Positions 13,139 to 20,327 of a DNA stretch of 64,000 nucleotides are shown one piece after another. The stretch is taken from positions 340,322 through 404,321 of the forward strand of contig NZ_JAAIXZ010000001.1 of assembly GCF_010894435.1 (NCBI RefSeq), given 5' to 3'. The notes beneath the pieces are model-generated. The model had not been told where the DNA came from, ran no database searches, and worked only from the letters and a program-made list of their open reading frames with translations. The position numbers and the translations under genes were made by a program. Positions within the stretch are counted from its first letter, which is position 1. Each line of letters opens with the position of its first letter. Source of the stretch: Pyxidicoccus trucidator. GTDB taxonomy: Bacteria > Myxococcota > Myxococcia > Myxococcales > Myxococcaceae.

Positions 13139-13714
13139 TCAGGGCGCCTCCAGCTCCGGGGGCCACAGCGCACCGAGGTGCAGCTCGAGGTCCTCGAAGG
13201 GCTCGGCCCGGACCCGGGCCTCGCCGGAGTACGTGCCTCGCGGCAGCCATTGCTCACCCTGCTTCCGGAAGACCTCCAGCGTGCGCGACGCCGGGTCCAC
13301 CAGCCACACGTACTCCACACCCTCGCGCGCGTAGATCTCCCGCTTGCGCTTCCGGTCCAGCGTCGCGGTCGACGGAGAGAGCACCTCGCAGACCCAGTCG
13401 GGTGCCAGGGTGAAATAGGGCACCCGCCGCATCTGCGGCATGCGCTCGCGCCGCCAGCCGGCGATGTCCGGAACCAGCACGTCCTGGCCGAAGTGCAGCT
13501 CGGGCTCATCGACAATCCACCAGCCGCCGGGACCTCCCTGCCCGACCTGGAAGGCCGTCAGCAGCAGACCTCCCAGCACGGAGTACGCCACCGCATGCGG
13601 GCTCGCCGGCCGCGGCATGGCGATGAGCTCTCCGTCGATGATCTGCCCGACCATGTTCTCGGGCAGTGCCTCGATGTCCGCATACGTCGCCGGACGCTTC
13701 GTCTCTTTGCTCAT
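13139..13714 (-). CDS. Uma2-family (DUF820) putative restriction-fold nuclease
   Basis: A 191-residue protein with the PD-(D/E)xK layout of Uma2 proteins: MVGQIIDGELIAMPRPA near the N-terminus, VPDIAGWRRE, WVCEVLSPSTATLDRKRKRE with the ExL..S..T pattern, then YAREGVEYVWLVDP. Uma2 proteins are very numerous in myxobacteria and cyanobacteria and their substrates are mostly unknown. The start at 13714 (MSKETKRP) has GGGGAG upstream; the frame stays open for 30 more codons, which are less conserved in character. It is convergent with pxpC and faces the sigma factor gene across a 262-bp gap. Confidence 0.88.
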   Translation of the reverse strand: MSKETKRPATYADIEALPENMVGQIIDGELIAMPRPASPHAVAYSVLGGLLLTAFQVGQGGPGGWWIVDEPELHFGQDVLVPDIAGWRRERMPQMRRVPYFTLAPDWVCEVLSPSTATLDRKRKREIYAREGVEYVWLVDPASRTLEVFRKQGEQWLPRGTYSGEARVRAEPFEDLELHLGALWPPELEAP

Positions 13715-13976
13715 CTCGGTACTCCCCGGTCCTCCAAGCTCCAACCCTTCCATCATCAGCCCTGCCTCCCAGGAGTGAAACCCCACCTGCGACGGTGTGT
13801 CCACTCCTTCCTACTCCCCAGGTCTGACAACCGGCCGGGCGACCCTCCCCTGCCGGGTGGGCCGGAAAAATCGTCCGGAAGGGGTGAGGAAAAGAATCCG
13901 CCACCGCCGTTGAGAGGGACAGAAGGGGAGACTGGCCTTGCAACCTGCTTGCTCGGGTACAGAAGTTTCGAAGACC

Positions 13977-14555
13977 ATGGGCACCTCGCGGAGGAAACGC
14001 CACGTGGAGCTGCGACAGAGCCCAGCACCTGCCGTGGGGGCCTCGAAAGACGCGGGGCTCGAGCAGCTCCGGCGCGACCTGGCACAGGCCGTCTCCCGGG
14101 TCTGCCCCCCCACCATGGCCGACCGACGCGATGACCTGGTGCAGAACGCGATGATGCGCGTCATGGAGCTCCAGCGACGAGCCCCCGAGCATGCCCCGCT
14201 GTCGCCGGCCTACCTGTACCGCGTCGCATACACGGCGCTCATCGACGAGGTACGCAACGTGGGTCGGCGCCGCGAAGTGGCGATGGACGTGGTGGAAGCG
14301 CTGCCCGAGCAGCCGACCTCACCGGACAACCCGGAGCGCGCCGCGGGGGCCGCGCAGATTGGCCGCGCGGTGCGCGACTGCCTGCAGAAGCTCGCGGAGG
14401 ACCGCCGCCTCGCGGTGACGCTGTACCTGCAGGGCCACACCATTCCAGAAGCCGCGGCGCTGCTCGCCTGGGAAGGCAAGCGCACCGAGAACCTTGTCTA
14501 CCGTGGGCTGAGCGCGCTGCGCGCCTGCCTCGCGCTGAAGGGAGTCGAGCCGTGA
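13977..14555 (+). CDS. RNA polymerase sigma factor, ECF type
   Basis: A 192-residue sigma-70 family protein with region 2 (RDDLVQNAMMRVMELQRRA, then AYLYRVAYTALIDEVRNVGR) and region 4 (QKLAEDRRLAVTLYLQGHTIPEAAALLAW, then RTENLVYRGLSALRACL). It ends in a 4-bp overlap with the gene for a membrane protein that looks like its anti-sigma factor. It heads an operon with a secreted protein and a CHAT protein, which are likely its targets. The ATG at 13977 was preferred to a TTG 13 codons upstream; neither has a strong ribosome site. The sigma family is clear; the ECF subgroup is not identified. Confidence 0.85.
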   Translation: MGTSRRKRHVELRQSPAPAVGASKDAGLEQLRRDLAQAVSRVCPPTMADRRDDLVQNAMMRVMELQRRAPEHAPLSPAYLYRVAYTALIDEVRNVGRRREVAMDVVEALPEQPTSPDNPERAAGAAQIGRAVRDCLQKLAEDRRLAVTLYLQGHTIPEAAALLAWEGKRTENLVYRGLSALRACLALKGVEP

Positions 14556-15319
14556 GCGAGCGCCCGCCCGACGACGACACGCCCGATGCCGCCGCCGTCG
14601 AGCGCCTCCGCGCGGCCTTCCGTTCCGGGGATGCGCCGGAGCAGGACGGCGAGCCCGTGGACCCGGACCGCATCTGGCGCGCGGTGACGGGTGAGGCGTC
14701 CCCCGAGGAGCGCCGTGAGGTCATCGCCCGCGTGGCGGCCGACCCCGCCTGGGCCACCGCCTGGCGCCTCGCCCACGCCCTGTCGCAAGCCGCGGCGGCG
14801 GCGCCCCAGGAGGCTCCGGCCAGCGTCACGTCCCCCGCGGACCTGCGCGCCCGTCGCGACACGGAGGGTTCCAGGTCCCGGGGACGCCGCTTCCACTTCG
14901 CCTGGAGCCGCCCTGTCTGGGGCGCGGTGGCGACGGCAGCGCTCGTGCTCATCGTGGTGGGCGTCTCCGTGCGGCAGTCGGGCGTCCCCGGGCAGGAGGG
15001 CGGCGACACGCCCACCCTGCGTGGAGGGGACTCGCTGGCCGTCGTCTCCCGGCTCCCCGAGGACGCGCCGCTGCCCCGGACCGACTGCGTGCTGCGCTGG
15101 AGCGAGGGGCCCGAGGGTACGCGCTGGTCGCTCCAGCTCTCGTCGGAGGACCTGAGCCTGGTCCACCGCGCGGACTCGCTGACGAAGAGCGAGTACCGGG
15201 TGCCCGCCGAGGTGCTCGCGGCGGTGCCGCCGGGAACGAAGCTGCTGTGGCAGGTCGAGGCGCGCCTGCCGGACGGACAGGTGCAGCGCAGCGCCACGTT
15301 CGTGAACCGGATTCAGTGA
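14552..15319 (+). CDS. Putative membrane anti-sigma factor
   Basis: A 255-residue single-pass membrane protein. Residues 1-115 are cytoplasmic, acidic and helical (PEERREVIARVAADPAWATA resembles the sigma-binding helix of anti-sigma factors), residues 122-141 form the membrane helix (VWGAVATAALVLIVVGVSV), and 142-255 would be periplasmic. The periplasmic part ends with a beta-rich stretch (LLWQVEARLPDGQVQRSATF). There is no zinc-binding HxxxCxxC motif. The GTG start at 14552 overlaps the sigma gene stop (GTGA). Function as anti-sigma is inferred from topology and coupling. Confidence 0.75.
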   Translation: MSERPPDDDTPDAAAVERLRAAFRSGDAPEQDGEPVDPDRIWRAVTGEASPEERREVIARVAADPAWATAWRLAHALSQAAAAAPQEAPASVTSPADLRARRDTEGSRSRGRRFHFAWSRPVWGAVATAALVLIVVGVSVRQSGVPGQEGGDTPTLRGGDSLAVVSRLPEDAPLPRTDCVLRWSEGPEGTRWSLQLSSEDLSLVHRADSLTKSEYRVPAEVLAAVPPGTKLLWQVEARLPDGQVQRSATFVNRIQ

Positions 15320-15351
15320 AGCTGTCCGCTCGAAAGAAGAGGGGGACTCAT

Positions 15352-15918
15352 ATGAAGGCAACGAGGATGACGATGGGGTGGACCGCGGTGCGCATCGGAG
15401 TGCTGGCGCTCGCAACCTTGCTGGGGGGCATGACGGAGGCGCAGGCACAGACACAGGTGACGTCGACGACGCCAAACCCGACCGTCAAGGTGACGACGCC
15501 GCTCGTCGTCGGCGCCACGCATGACACCGTGGTGGCCTCGCTGGTGGATGCCGGCATCATGACGGGTGACACGGTGATGGTGACGCTGCGCCTGGTTGAC
15601 GCCGCCGGGGCGGTAGTGGCCCAGACCTCGGGCCTGGTGAGCGAGAGCATGCCCCTGCGCTTGAGCTACCGGGCGACCTCGGCCGGCGGGCTCTCCGCGC
15701 AGGTCCTCGTCCCGCTGACGGAGGTCGGGCTCTCCCTGCCCTTGTTGTCGGTGGAACGCTGGAGTCCCGCGGTCTGGCCGCCTCCGCGGGAGCCGGAACC
15801 GGAAGCCTGCCTCATGCCTCGCACCCAGAGGCCTCCTCCAACCGAGGGGCCGGTGACGTTCTGCCTGCAGCTCGACCCCAGGTGCCCCTGCGGCATGGTC
15901 CCTGCCGGCCCGCAGTGA
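15352..15918 (+). CDS. Secreted hypothetical protein
   Basis: A 188-residue protein with a Sec signal peptide (hydrophobic residues 12-26, likely cut after AQA at about residue 32). The mature part starts with a beta-rich Thr/Val domain (PTVKVTTPLVVGATHDTVVA) of about 110 residues and finishes with a Pro/Cys-containing tail (FCLQLDPRCPCGMVP). No known family is recognised. The ATG at 15352 has GAGGGGG at a good distance. It sits between the anti-sigma gene and the CHAT gene, so it may be a sensor, a cofactor or a substrate of the CHAT protein; that is only suggested by position. Confidence 0.75.
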   Translation: MKATRMTMGWTAVRIGVLALATLLGGMTEAQAQTQVTSTTPNPTVKVTTPLVVGATHDTVVASLVDAGIMTGDTVMVTLRLVDAAGAVVAQTSGLVSESMPLRLSYRATSAGGLSAQVLVPLTEVGLSLPLLSVERWSPAVWPPPREPEPEACLMPRTQRPPPTEGPVTFCLQLDPRCPCGMVPAGPQ

Positions 15919-15998
15919 CTCCGGCCGCGCCCCGCCACATGGCCGCCACGGGGCAATGACTTCCGGCGGTTCCCGTCACCCGGTAATAGAGTGGCGGG

Positions 15999-18872
15999 GT
16001 GCCGAGGCTGGGGCGAGGACATCCAAGGGCTGTCATCCTCTTCGCTCTCGTGGCGGGGGCGGCCCTCGCCGCGTCCGGCCCGGATGCGGGCACCGAGACT
16101 CCTCCCGCGCTGGCCGCCTGCAAGGCCCGCTTCGGCGAAGCGCCCCAGGGCTCCGAGTCGGCGATGTGCTTCTACCGCAACGCCCAGGGCGCGTCGGGGC
16201 GCGACGCCGCACGGCGGCTGCTGACGGAGCTCCTGGAGCACCACCGCGAACATCCCTGGCTGCTGATGGTGCTCGGCCATGTGGAGCAGCTGTCGGAGCC
16301 TCGTGCGGCCGAGGCCTCCTACCGGCGCTCCGCGCTGGAGTTCCGCCGCCTCCAGGACGCCGAGGGTGAGGTGCTGGCGGCCATCAACCTGCGCATCATC
16401 CTCATGAACCAGAAGCGGATTGATGAGGCGCGTGAATGGACGCGGCGCATCGCCGAGGTGGCGCGGGCCTCGGGGAGTCCTGAGCTGAACGCGCGCGCCC
16501 TCATCGTCGAAGCCAATGAGCTGGCGGAGGTGGAGCTCGACCTGGGGCGGGCCTTCCGGCTGCTCAAGCGCGCCGAGGCGCTGGTCTTCCCTGACGGCAC
16601 CGACGGACTGAAGAAGCAGTGCCTCTCCTCGCTGGCGGTGGTGAGCACCAACCTGGGGCGCCTGGAGGAAGCCGCGGACGTCTACCAGCGGCTGGTGGAG
16701 CTGGCGCAGCGCACGCGCGAGGCCCCGTTGGAGGCACGCGTGCGCGTCTCGCAGGCCAACCTCGCCGTCACGCTCCACGAGCGGCGCCCCGAGCCCGGCG
16801 GGCGCGCACGCCTCCTCGCCCTGGCGCGCGAGGCGCTGGCCGCCTCGGAGCTTGCGGGCAGCAAGTCCATGGAGGCCATGTCGCTGCGAATCGTGGCGGA
16901 CCTGCTGGGCCCCTCCCCCGAGGAGCGGCTCGAGGCCGAGCAGCACCTGCGGCGCTGCCTGACGCTGGCGGACGAGCTGGGCAAACCCGAGCGGCGCATC
17001 GCCTGCCTCTGGACCCGCGCGGAGCGCTTCGCCGCGTCCGCGCCCGAGGCCGCGGACCGGGACGCGGAGGAAGCGCTGCGGCTGGCCTACGCGTATGCCG
17101 ACCCGCAGTACCTCGCCCTGGCCCTGCGGGCTCGCGCGACGGTGGCCTTCCACACGAAGCCCCTGCCCGACGCGCTTCACCATGCCGAGCGCGCGCTGGA
17201 CGCGGTGGAGTCGCTGCGGAGCCTGCAGCGCGATGCCTCCAGCCAGGCCGAGCTGTTCGCGAGCTGGGCCAGCGACTACCACCGCCTCGCCGGGTGGACG
17301 CTCGAAGCGGGTGGCGTCACGGGGAAGGCGGCCACGCTGGCACCGCGCGAGGCCCTGGAGCGCACATTCCAGGTGAGCGAGCGGCTGCGGGCGCGGAGCC
17401 TGCTGGATACCCTGGTGGCGTCACAGGCGCTGTCCACCTCCGGAGAGGAGCCGGGCCGGCGCGCGGCCCGCGCGGAGCTGCAGCGCCGGCTGGTGGCGGT
17501 ACAGCGGCGCCTGCTGGAGTCCACGCTCGGCGCGCCGGAGCGCGAGGCGGCACTGAACGAGCTGAGGGAGCTGGAGCGCAACGAGCGCGACCTGCGCCCC
17601 GCGCCCCGCCATGGCACCACGGAGTTCGCCACGCTCGAAGCCGTGGAAAAGGGGCTGGCGCCGGACGAGGCGATGCTCGCCTTCCTCGTGGGCGTCGACC
17701 GCGACATCTATGGCGACCCGGCGGGCAGCGCGTGGCTGCTCGTAGTCACCCGCGAGGGCTCGCGAGCCCACCGCATCCCCGAGCGCACCCGGCTGACGCC
17801 CGCGGTGGCCCTCTTCTCCGGCCTTCTCGAACGCCGGGACGGCTCCGAGGTGGGTGCCGCCGTGGCACTCCATGCGCAACTGCTGGGCCCGGCCCTGGCC
17901 GCGCTGCCCCCGGGCGTGCGCCGGCTGCTGCTGGTGCCCGACGGGCCGCTGCATGACCTGCCCTTCGCCGTGCTGCGGGAGCGACCGGACGCACCACCGC
18001 TGGTGGCGCGGTACGAGCTGGCGGTGGTGCCTTCCGCCAGCCTCTGGCGCTACTGGCGTGAGCAGCCGGCCCTGTCCCCGGGCGGCGAGGCGCTGGTGCT
18101 GGCCGACCCCGAGCGGGGCACGGCCTCGCCGGTGAAGCGGGCTCCGGCGTCCGAGCGGGCCGGAGTCTTCGACGAAGCCGCCCAGCTCGCCGCGCTCCCG
18201 GAAGCACGCCGGGAGGGGCACGCGGTGGAGCGGCTGCTCCAGGACACGAAGGTCGCCCCGCGCCTGCTCGTGGGCCTGGAGGCGTCGGAGCGGGCCCTCA
18301 AGAGCGCGCGCCTGGACGGGGTGCGGGTGCTGCACCTGGCGGCGCATGCCATCGTCGACGCCGAGGCCCCCGAGCGCTCGGCGCTGGTGCTGGCGCCGGG
18401 CGCGGAGGAGGAGGACGGCATCCTCCAGCCCCGGGAAATCGCCGAGCTGCACCTGGAGGGCGCGATGGTGGTGCTGTCGAGCTGCCAGAGCGCGTCCGGG
18501 GCAATGCTCCCGGGCGAAGGCGTGCTGAGCCTGGCGCGGGCCTTCTTCGAGGCGGGCTCGCGCGCGGTGGTGGCCAGCCTGTGGCCCCTGCGTGACGACG
18601 AGGCCGCCAGGCTCGTGGAGCGGTTCTACCGGCACCTGGCCCGGGGAGTGAGCGCCTCGGCGGCGCTGCGGGCCGCGCAGCTCGAGGCCATCGAGGACGG
18701 ACAGCCCCCGGCGGCCTGGGCGGGGCTCGTCGTGCTGGGGGACGCGTCCCTGGTGGCCCTGGAGCCGCGAGCGCGCACCGGAGCGGGCGGAATCCAGGTG
18801 GCCCTGGGGGCCCTGGCCGTCCTCTCCGCGCTGGTGGCCGCGGCCGTCTGGTTCCGCCGAGCGCGCCCGTAA
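15999..18872 (+). CDS. CHAT-domain protein with TPR repeats, exported and membrane-anchored
   Basis: A 957-residue protein. A signal peptide (residues 10-24) leads to a long helical TPR-like region (about 45-480), then a CHAT caspase-like protease domain (about 600-920). The catalytic pair is visible: His783 in HLAAHAIVD and Cys829 in LSSCQSASG. FEAGSRAVVASLWPLRDDEA and FYRHLARGVSASAALRAAQL follow, as in other CHAT proteins. A C-terminal helix (about 932-950) and RRARP tail form a membrane anchor, so the protease probably faces the periplasm. The start is a GTG at 15999, chosen because it yields the signal peptide. It ends the sigma/anti-sigma operon. Substrate is unknown. Confidence 0.85.
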   Translation: MPRLGRGHPRAVILFALVAGAALAASGPDAGTETPPALAACKARFGEAPQGSESAMCFYRNAQGASGRDAARRLLTELLEHHREHPWLLMVLGHVEQLSEPRAAEASYRRSALEFRRLQDAEGEVLAAINLRIILMNQKRIDEAREWTRRIAEVARASGSPELNARALIVEANELAEVELDLGRAFRLLKRAEALVFPDGTDGLKKQCLSSLAVVSTNLGRLEEAADVYQRLVELAQRTREAPLEARVRVSQANLAVTLHERRPEPGGRARLLALAREALAASELAGSKSMEAMSLRIVADLLGPSPEERLEAEQHLRRCLTLADELGKPERRIACLWTRAERFAASAPEAADRDAEEALRLAYAYADPQYLALALRARATVAFHTKPLPDALHHAERALDAVESLRSLQRDASSQAELFASWASDYHRLAGWTLEAGGVTGKAATLAPREALERTFQVSERLRARSLLDTLVASQALSTSGEEPGRRAARAELQRRLVAVQRRLLESTLGAPEREAALNELRELERNERDLRPAPRHGTTEFATLEAVEKGLAPDEAMLAFLVGVDRDIYGDPAGSAWLLVVTREGSRAHRIPERTRLTPAVALFSGLLERRDGSEVGAAVALHAQLLGPALAALPPGVRRLLLVPDGPLHDLPFAVLRERPDAPPLVARYELAVVPSASLWRYWREQPALSPGGEALVLADPERGTASPVKRAPASERAGVFDEAAQLAALPEARREGHAVERLLQDTKVAPRLLVGLEASERALKSARLDGVRVLHLAAHAIVDAEAPERSALVLAPGAEEEDGILQPREIAELHLEGAMVVLSSCQSASGAMLPGEGVLSLARAFFEAGSRAVVASLWPLRDDEAARLVERFYRHLARGVSASAALRAAQLEAIEDGQPPAAWAGLVVLGDASLVALEPRARTGAGGIQVALGALAVLSALVAAAVWFRRARP

Positions 18873-18971: not shown

Positions 18972-20327
18972 ATGAAGCCCACTGTCACCGGCCCCCGCGT
19001 CCAGCCCCGTCCCGTCGAGACTCCCGAGCCGGTCCGTCCGCGCAACGAGGTCAAGCCCGCCCAGCCGCAGACCCCGGCCGCGCGCCCCGACACGACGGGC
19101 GTGTCCCGGTTCGATTCGGGCAAGGGCCGCCAGCCGAACGTGGCGCTGACCACGCCGGTGAAGGCGCCTCCGGGGGGAAGCATCGCCCCGGGCAGCTACC
19201 CCACCGCGGCGGACGTGAAGGCCATCGCCGCGATGAAGGACCCGGTGGCGCGCAACTACGCGATTACGCAGGGCTACCACGACCTGTCCGACGCGATGGG
19301 CAAGCTCGTCGGCGACGACAACGCCAACTGGGCCACCTACGGCACCTGGGCCTCGAAGCAGGCCGGCGTGAGCATCCGCGGCGAGGACATGCCCAAGGTC
19401 TTCACGGATGCGCTCAAGGGCGCTGGCGCCCTCGGTGGCCCCCTCTCCAAGGTAGACGACTTCCTGCGCAAGCTCGGCCTGCCCGGCATGCCCGTCGGCG
19501 ACCTCGGCGCGGCCGGTCAGGAGGCGCTCGCCAAGGTCAGCAATGAGATTGCCGGCGGCAACCAGTTCGTCTTCAACGAGATTGGCCAGGAGTTCGCCCG
19601 CTTCATCGACACCTTCAAGGGCGACACGAAGCCTGACCCGGCCAAGCTGCAGCAGTACCTGGACGGCTTCCCCAAGGACAAGCCGCTGCTCCGCGAGGCC
19701 TTCAGCCACTACGCGGAGGCGATGACGGAGAAGGACCCGAACAAGAAGGCCGAGCTGATGCTCATGGCCAACAACAAGGTCGGCCTCCACGAGCAGACGC
19801 AGCTGCAGCCGTACGTCGAGCGGGCCCTCAACGCGCCGGTGAAGGAGACCTTCCGCAACATCCTCAAGCAGTCCGTGGAGGGTGCCATCAACGCGCTCCC
19901 CTTCCCCGCCAACCTGGCCGGCAAGGCCGCGCTGAAGTCGGGCGTGGTGGACTCGATGCTGGACTCCGTGGTGGACAAGGCGGCCGGCGTGTTCCGCGGC
20001 ATCGCCACCGAGCACATGATGAAGCTCGCCGTCCCCGGTGGCGCGCTCAAGATTGGCAATGACCTGCCCCCGCCCAAGGGCATGGAGTCCACCCTCTTCC
20101 CGCCGCACCTGCGCACCATCCAGAACCCGGAGCTGAAGGCCCTGCTCAACAAGCTGGACCACAGCCCCGACAGCCTGAAGGGCACCGCCGCGAAGGACTG
20201 GAGCCGGCTGGACCAGCGGATGGACTACATCATCGACCTCTTCCGCACGCGCCAGTCGGACCCGCACCTGTTCGACCAGCCCTTTGGCCGCAGCGCGACC
20301 TACCCGCTGCCGACCGCGCCCCGCTGA
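18972..20327 (+). CDS. Hypothetical protein with disordered N-terminus
   Basis: A 451-residue protein of unknown function. Residues 1-70 are Pro/Arg/Thr-rich and disordered (VQPRPVETPEPVRPRNE). A helical domain of about 170 residues follows, with GYHDLSDAMGKLVGDDNANW and TYGTWASKQAGVSIRGED, a motif I associate with a widespread but uncharacterised family, then a second helical region (FRNILKQSVEGAINALPFP). There is no signal peptide or membrane helix. ATG 18954 and ATG 18972 are both possible starts; 18972 (MKPTVTGP) is used because no ribosome site favours the other. It stands alone between the CHAT operon and the antiporter. Confidence 0.75.
   Translation: MKPTVTGPRVQPRPVETPEPVRPRNEVKPAQPQTPAARPDTTGVSRFDSGKGRQPNVALTTPVKAPPGGSIAPGSYPTAADVKAIAAMKDPVARNYAITQGYHDLSDAMGKLVGDDNANWATYGTWASKQAGVSIRGEDMPKVFTDALKGAGALGGPLSKVDDFLRKLGLPGMPVGDLGAAGQEALAKVSNEIAGGNQFVFNEIGQEFARFIDTFKGDTKPDPAKLQQYLDGFPKDKPLLREAFSHYAEAMTEKDPNKKAELMLMANNKVGLHEQTQLQPYVERALNAPVKETFRNILKQSVEGAINALPFPANLAGKAALKSGVVDSMLDSVVDKAAGVFRGIATEHMMKLAVPGGALKIGNDLPPPKGMESTLFPPHLRTIQNPELKALLNKLDHSPDSLKGTAAKDWSRLDQRMDYIIDLFRTRQSDPHLFDQPFGRSATYPLPTAPR

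Follow-up and report, generated by a model that had tools for sequence, protein, structure and literature searches.

In Myxococcus xanthus, the PddvS promoter requires the extracytoplasmic function (ECF) sigma factor DdvS, and DdvA acts as its anti-sigma factor; where PMC4374960 deals with DdvA, the signal that inactivates it is stated as unknown. According to the relevant part of PMC10028731, the TPR-CHAT protein Csx29 cuts Csx30, an inhibitor of an ECF-like sigma factor, and the outline of the type III CRISPR system CalpL/CalpT/CalpS in PMC12751052 has a protease cut an anti-sigma factor and thereby free a sigma factor. For ECF54, the group description in PMC8999054 places CHAT, subtilase and carboxypeptidase genes near the sigma gene and proposes proteolytic control. 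Here we describe an operon of Pyxidicoccus trucidator that encodes an ECF sigma factor, an anti-sigma factor, a small exported protein (gene 3) and an exported TPR-CHAT protein, in that order, on the forward strand at positions 13977-18872 of the analysed stretch of DNA (the window: 64,000 nt in all; GCF_010894435.1, NZ_JAAIXZ010000001.1, positions 340,322-404,321, forward strand). A first-pass annotation made from the letters alone had placed four genes here; their place and strand were confirmed, as was the numbering of the catalytic residues H783 and C829.

Comparison with DdvS/DdvA and other described systems

DdvS/DdvA (PDB 8rot, 8rw5, 8rlz) and the window operon both place an ECF sigma gene beside the gene of an anti-sigma factor with one membrane helix, and, to judge by the topology predicted for the fused proteins described below, both probably direct a TPR-CHAT part to the periplasm. 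In DdvA, however, the anti-sigma region, transmembrane segment, TPR and CHAT form one polypeptide, whereas the window carries them in two genes with gene 3 between them. The window also differs in that its CHAT protein has its own signal peptide and C-terminal anchor, in that the zinc ligands of the anti-sigma factor are lost, and in the addition of gene 3. In Escherichia coli, RpoE, the one-helix anti-sigma factor RseA and the periplasmic regulator RseB are likewise encoded in one operon, which is similar in make-up but lacks a CHAT protease.

We compared an AlphaFold2 model of the window CHAT protein (mean predicted local distance difference test (pLDDT) score 79.8; helices at residues 36-532) with solved structures. 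The first Foldseek rows were DdvA (8rw5, 8rot), followed by Csx29, and VIA gave Csx29 (7y9x; Z 30.1, root-mean-square deviation 6.7, 523 aligned) and DdvA (8rw5; Z 21.2, root-mean-square deviation 5.9, 605 aligned) with separases in between. In sequence searches, phmmer found no match between the window CHAT protein and DdvA up to E 10, and the NCBIfam Csx29 model scored 18.5 bits on the window protein against a cut-off of 300. As presented in PMC10028731, the type III-E Craspase (Csx29, Csx30, CASP-sigma) is alike in joining a TPR-CHAT protease to an ECF-like sigma factor and its inhibitor; Csx29 nevertheless acts in a complex with Cas7-11 that is switched on by target RNA, whereas the window protein is predicted to be exported. 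Compared by its description, ECF54 shares a CHAT gene beside an ECF sigma gene but is controlled without an anti-sigma factor, of which the window has one (PMC8999054), and CalpL, in the account of PMC12751052, differs in being a Lon-type protease with a SAVED sensor rather than CHAT, without export. In its parts, the window operon corresponds to DdvS/DdvA in split form, with one exported protein added; it belongs neither to the fused family nor to Csx29, nor to ECF54 as described. A literature search, thin on subscription papers, yielded no paper that we recognised as dealing with this split operon.

The tie between CHAT and anti-sigma factor suggested by the first-pass annotation was strengthened by the P. 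trucidator genome itself, in which a sigma gene at six loci is followed by zf-HC2, transmembrane segment, TPR and CHAT in one polypeptide, the architecture of the solved DdvA. Pfam was run on five of these six fused proteins and found zf-HC2 in each, above the cut-off in three; for one fused protein (L137:4021-7032), CHAT was above the cut-off in one scan and gave no row in a later scan. The three that were compared with the PDB all matched DdvA end to end (8rot/8rw5; 1.1e-142, 4.2e-137 and 1e-123), and a search of 195 phylum genomes with one fused protein at E<=1e-40 found relatives in 67. Three other members of this family (L131, L136 and L133) are DdvA-like in their transmembrane, TPR and CHAT parts; inspection by eye revealed no zf-HC2-like start, and no sigma gene adjoins them upstream. 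At L133, a match to a sigma region lies about 2 kb downstream. This poses the question whether the three have been freed from anti-sigma duty or are degenerating. The His and Cys of the dyad align in all nine fused or transmembrane CHAT paralogues. One locus of the same genome (L137:4021-11026) holds two tandem units of sigma gene and fused zf-HC2-TM-TPR-CHAT gene.

In total, CHAT was found at 27 places in this genome, and seven of these genes have a same-strand ECF sigma gene within 4 kb upstream, compared with a mean of 0.29 by random placement and a count of seven that was never reached in 20,000 random trials. These counts are not independent, since six of the seven belong to one paralogous family. 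An N-terminal signal-like stretch or a transmembrane helix precedes CHAT in 21 of the 27 proteins (11 + 1 + 6 + 3). The first-pass annotation had described the protease as envelope-facing; the export signals of the window protein and its relatives uphold this, but because 21 of 27 CHAT proteins of the genome show such signals, it is not a special feature of this operon. Loci L121-L127 (own contigs 10, 3, 8, 35, 12, 5 and 24) encode eleven paralogous exported-looking CHAT proteins of 949-1189 aa, of which only the pair on contig 10 has a sigma-region match within 8 kb, located on the opposite strand.

A quick CHAT-domain tree (10 of 40 CHAT rows, 14 distant sequences and 15 own paralogues; 20 of 36 inner branches open) set the fused family apart from the window lineage on a long branch, with a value of 100 in the Shimodaira-Hasegawa-like approximate likelihood ratio test (SH-aLRT) under midpoint rooting. 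Given this distance, the fused and split arrangements may be either separate inventions or very old.

Gene content and predicted topology

The features of the operon, all on the forward strand, are as follows.

13948..13976, forward: promoter-like element CTTGC-N14-TTCGANGACC, ahead of the sigma gene and clear mainly within the genus
13977..14555, forward: ECF sigma factor gene, start more likely GTG 14004 (Pfam Sigma70_r4_2, E 1.6e-6; TIGR02937, E 2.9e-13)
14552..15319, forward: anti-sigma factor with one transmembrane segment and a predicted periplasmic C-terminal part (zf-HC2-matching relative L157; hydropathy)
14915..14971, forward: anti-sigma transmembrane segment, residues 122-140 (hydropathy)
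15020..15022, forward: codon of R157, candidate cleavage site, an invariant Arg in the variable linker behind the membrane helix
15352..15918, forward: gene 3, predicted small exported beta-sandwich protein (signal-like N-terminus; AlphaFold2 strands)
15999..18872, forward: predicted exported TPR-CHAT cysteine-protease-like protein with C-terminal membrane anchor (Pfam CHAT; AlphaFold2; Foldseek)
17859..18743, forward: CHAT domain, residues 621-915 (Pfam CHAT, 3.5e-65; TPR weak)
18345..18347, forward: codon of the predicted catalytic His783 (invariant in 35/35 rows; 8/9 distant relatives)
18483..18485, forward: codon of the predicted catalytic Cys829 (invariant in 35/35 rows; 9/9 distant relatives)
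18789..18860, forward: C-terminal membrane helix, residues 931-954, then an Arg-rich tail (hydropathy; AlphaFold2 model)

The sigma gene was correctly called in presence and strand by the first-pass annotation; its start at ATG 13977 is less likely than GTG 14004, because GGAGGAAA lies directly upstream of the latter and this start is common to relatives. The 4-bp overlap of the sigma and anti-sigma genes (14552-14555), already noted in the annotation, recurs at all 36 places holding both genes. Gene 3 and the CHAT gene are separated by 80 bp in the window; 20 of the 38 places have a gap of 1 bp, and a further seven offer an in-frame start that would give the same gap.

Pfam reported no family for the window anti-sigma protein, and among solved structures related to it by sequence nothing was better than E 0.38. 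Its relative in L157, a locus with the same gene order, matches zf-HC2 above the cut-off (24.1 vs 22.2 bits). The window protein aligns across the finger with this relative and with that of L109, but the zinc ligands (HxxxCxxC) are absent from it; the motif is present in L157 and was recognised by eye in the alignment in L109, where Pfam reported no zf-HC2. On this kinship, gene 2 is an anti-sigma factor. The hydrophobic segment was found in all 36 full anti-sigma rows (G058 excluded), and R157 and G158 are invariant in the same 36 rows within an otherwise variable linker. R157 is also nearly invariant across a wider alignment of 16 rows, in which three distant sequences were joined to 13 of the 36 close ones, and we regard it as a candidate P1 residue for cleavage.

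The gene 3 protein has the signal-like N-terminus expected of the secreted protein that the first-pass annotation had predicted, in the window as in relatives, and its cysteines C153 and C171 are invariant in 38 of 38 rows. Its AlphaFold2 model places strands at residues 44-137 with block pLDDT values of 76-98. Neither Pfam (only matches below the cut-off) nor Foldseek (no match at E<=0.001) named a family; the best VIA result, Z 7.7 to a GOLD domain, lies in a range that the tool calls common, and solved structures related by sequence gave nothing better than E 0.67. A kinship between gene 3 and the outer part of the anti-sigma factor was considered and rejected (profile comparison probability 0.9%). 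Gene 3 is the fastest-evolving part of the operon, with 35-47% identity to the window protein (88% in the closest copy) and ratios of nonsynonymous to synonymous substitution rates (dN/dS) of 0.24-0.73 in seven pairs, compared with 0.17-0.35 for CHAT. Such fast evolution would be expected of a ligand, an inhibitor or a substrate, and we suggest that the gene 3 protein may be one of these.

To describe the CHAT protein, we used 35 near-full rows including the window, after five partial ones (G065 twice, G115 twice and G058) had been set aside from 40. The domain belongs to PF12770, and the His783/Cys829 dyad, called intact by the first-pass annotation, is invariant in all 35. The cysteine pairs C41/C57 and C320/C336 are invariant as well, and the members of each pair lie on neighbouring helices in the helix list of the predicted model. 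Among nine distant relatives, the first pair was kept in all nine, the second in three, the dyad Cys in nine and the dyad His in eight, so that both catalytic residues are present in eight. A hydrophobic stretch with a mean hydropathy of at least 1.7 opens the protein in 36 of the 38 rows having an N-terminus, and in the other two (G096 and G115) it appears, as read by eye, from an upstream in-frame start; homologues without an export signal, which the first-pass annotation had named as evidence that would count against it, were thus not seen. Among the 35 rows, G067 and G077 lack the C-terminal helix, and in G068 and G079 it is weaker; G067 and G077, with possible frameshifts, were also dropped from the 33-row alignment used for folding. 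The signal peptide and C-terminal helix of the first-pass annotation accordingly hold for the window and most relatives as topology signals, which fits export of both the CHAT and the gene 3 proteins.

Conservation of the unit and its promoter-like element

Across 145 genomes of the order, the gene 3 protein is encoded at 38 places, spread over 37 genomes. The next gene at all 38 is a same-strand CHAT relative, and the sigma and anti-sigma genes precede at 36, the remaining two being L037, which is cut by a contig end, and L069, which lacks both. This co-occurrence supports the idea, already put forward in the first-pass annotation, that the four genes form one functional unit. CHAT relatives at E<=1e-30 were present in 45 of the 145 genomes: the 37 just named, plus eight in which all matches were distant. 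Within the genus, 19 of the 27 genomes have CHAT. Nucleotide comparison sorts the flanks of the operon into several contexts, suggesting that either the cassette moved as a whole or its surroundings did. A short-peptide scan of named genomes, far from complete, gave eight loci, five of them in Pyxidicoccus caerfyrddinensis (both copies), Myxococcus eversor, M. qinghaiensis and M. vastator, and three in metagenome-assembled genomes at 28-31%. In G064, an extra C-terminal CHAT fragment of 125 residues (C737:20114-20488; 60%) lies about 4 kb behind the gene.

A screen of 195 phylum genomes found CHAT relatives with 35-38% identity (E<=1e-35) in four that lie outside the order; outlying loci in genomes of lower G+C were read from all open frames. 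L152, in another family of the phylum, holds all four genes, with a gene 3 that has diverged in sequence and is similar in size and place. L157 lacks gene 3 but keeps the other three genes in the usual order; L154 has a secreted protein directly before CHAT without a homologous sigma gene; L153 and L155 are CHAT relatives without a linked homologous sigma gene; and in L156 the contig end is too near to judge the neighbours. Within the order, the sigma/anti-sigma pair is divergent from CHAT in L109 and L112, and L108 has no linked sigma gene. This mixture suggests that the CHAT lineage is often, though not always, tied to a sigma factor.

The promoter-like element was perfect in 13 of 37 operon upstream regions; 17 of the 37 have CTTGC-N14-TTC, and 25 have TTC[GA]A-N-GAC, the second half. 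It is therefore clear within the genus and blurred or absent in other genera. The 27 genomes of the genus yielded 19 perfect sites, as against nine for the reversed control, and 13 of the 19 belong to this operon. The operon site is the sole perfect match in the P. trucidator genome, where sites with at most one mismatch numbered 12 versus 27 for the reversed control, so that no regulon was seen outside the operon by a pattern that is strict and derived from this operon and that weaker targets would escape. A sigma factor regulating unrelated genes, which would have spoken against the first-pass reading, is thus not indicated by any excess of sites, and the lack of a second perfect match suggests that the sigma circuit may drive mainly its own operon.

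Directly upstream of the operon, a divergent gene for an Uma2-type putative endonuclease (PF05685, 1.3e-27) occupies window positions 13139-13804 on the reverse strand. Behind the operon, positions 18972-20327 on the forward strand encode a protein of about 451 residues that matches no known family; among 60 short loci, a relative at the same place was found only in L011 besides its own copy.

A proposed signalling circuit and its alternatives

Starting from the gene order, the topology signals, the intact dyad, the anti-sigma kinship and the promoter-like element, we tentatively favour a transmembrane signalling module that regulates itself and corresponds to DdvS/DdvA in split form, and in which CHAT would cut the anti-sigma factor upon an envelope signal; we regard this as a good possibility that still falls somewhat short of probable. 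The anti-sigma factor would keep the sigma factor at the inner membrane, and the exported CHAT protein, anchored by its C-terminal helix, would lie on the periplasmic side next to the outer part of the anti-sigma factor, with the small beta-sandwich protein as its exported partner. An envelope signal would be read by the TPR part, by the small protein or by both, whereupon the CHAT site would cut the anti-sigma factor in the linker just outside the membrane, possibly at R157. Further proteolysis would free the sigma factor to transcribe its own operon, giving more protease and partner in a positive feedback. The DdvA fusion, the outer-face position that CHAT has in both forms, and the precedent of Csx29 together make cleavage of the anti-sigma factor by CHAT the best single guess, and most likely CHAT senses the anti-sigma factor in the periplasm, cleaves it, or does both.

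Several observations weigh against this proposal. There are CHAT relatives without a linked homologous sigma gene (L108, L153, L154 and L155), and the one in L153 (G159, contig 154) has Glu in place of the catalytic His, with the Cys kept, in a genome that also bears the complete four-gene unit L152. The second copy in P. caerfyrddinensis (L069, 8398-9320, reverse strand) has lost both regulators; gene 3 and CHAT are still open frames there (dN/dS against the window 0.66 and 0.27, respectively) and directly follow a promoter-like stretch, which makes them look like targets of that promoter, while the genome also holds a second, complete operon (L070). Perfect copies of the promoter-like element occur in only a minority of upstream regions, the conservation of R157 may reflect folding, and the likeness to DdvA may be convergent, given the distance of the lineages on the tree. 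Moreover, if the protease is made only after release of the sigma factor, it could set off the circuit only where its basal level is sufficient.

Many of the same data would be accommodated if CHAT and the small exported protein were only the output of the circuit, with another protease (RseP/DegS-like) acting on the anti-sigma factor and the freed sigma factor making an envelope protease for other targets, which is possible, if somewhat doubtful. With no excess of promoter-like sites elsewhere, the operon itself is the visible output, and the tight spacing of gene 3 and CHAT at most places points the same way. The CHAT relatives without a sigma gene and the loss of the regulators in L069, where a similar promoter stretch stands before the two remaining genes, make this explanation nearly as good as anti-sigma cleavage. 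It leaves unexplained, however, why the anti-sigma factor and CHAT are fused in DdvA and its relatives and why the linker Arg is invariant. The two roles may both be true within one feedback loop.

CHAT could instead serve as a non-proteolytic sensor scaffold that binds the outer part of the anti-sigma factor and alters its grip on the sigma factor by contact. The helical TPR part that makes up most of the protein would suit such a role, as would the loss of the catalytic His in L153; we consider it improbable because the dyad is otherwise kept in the 35 rows, in eight of the nine distant relatives and in the nine paralogues. An envelope conflict or cell-death system, in which the protease is released on attack and kills or stops the cell, is very improbable: the occurrence of CHAT domains in defence systems (PMC10907252, in the part concerned) and the patchy presence in the genus speak for it, but patchiness equally fits ordinary accessory regulation, no operon gene other than CHAT matched PADLOC at E<=0.1, and the conflict role entertained in the first-pass annotation found no more than a short CHAT-region match to BovA (4.4e-6 over 63 residues). 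An anti-phage system was rejected, as PADLOC gave no system at the operon.

Returning to cleavage by CHAT, a more specific version would have the exported TPR-CHAT protein serve as a site-1 protease dedicated to the anti-sigma factor of its operon, with the cut falling after Arg157, the beta-sandwich protein as ligand or inhibitor and a sigma factor that drives only this operon, such that activation locks a high-protease state; the split and fused forms would stem from separate CHAT lineages, so that the coupling would have evolved at least twice. Taken with all its parts, this version is unlikely. The site-1 proteases known to act in the release of ECF sigma factors belong to different classes, for example DegS or signal peptidase. 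A caspase-like enzyme in this role beyond the cytoplasm would be a novelty and a parallel to the Csx29 of type III-E. DdvA, as one polypeptide, is hard to dissect, whereas in the split operon inhibitor, protease and partner are three genes, each of which can be removed or mutated alone; the operon therefore offers a test of whether such proteases release sigma factors.

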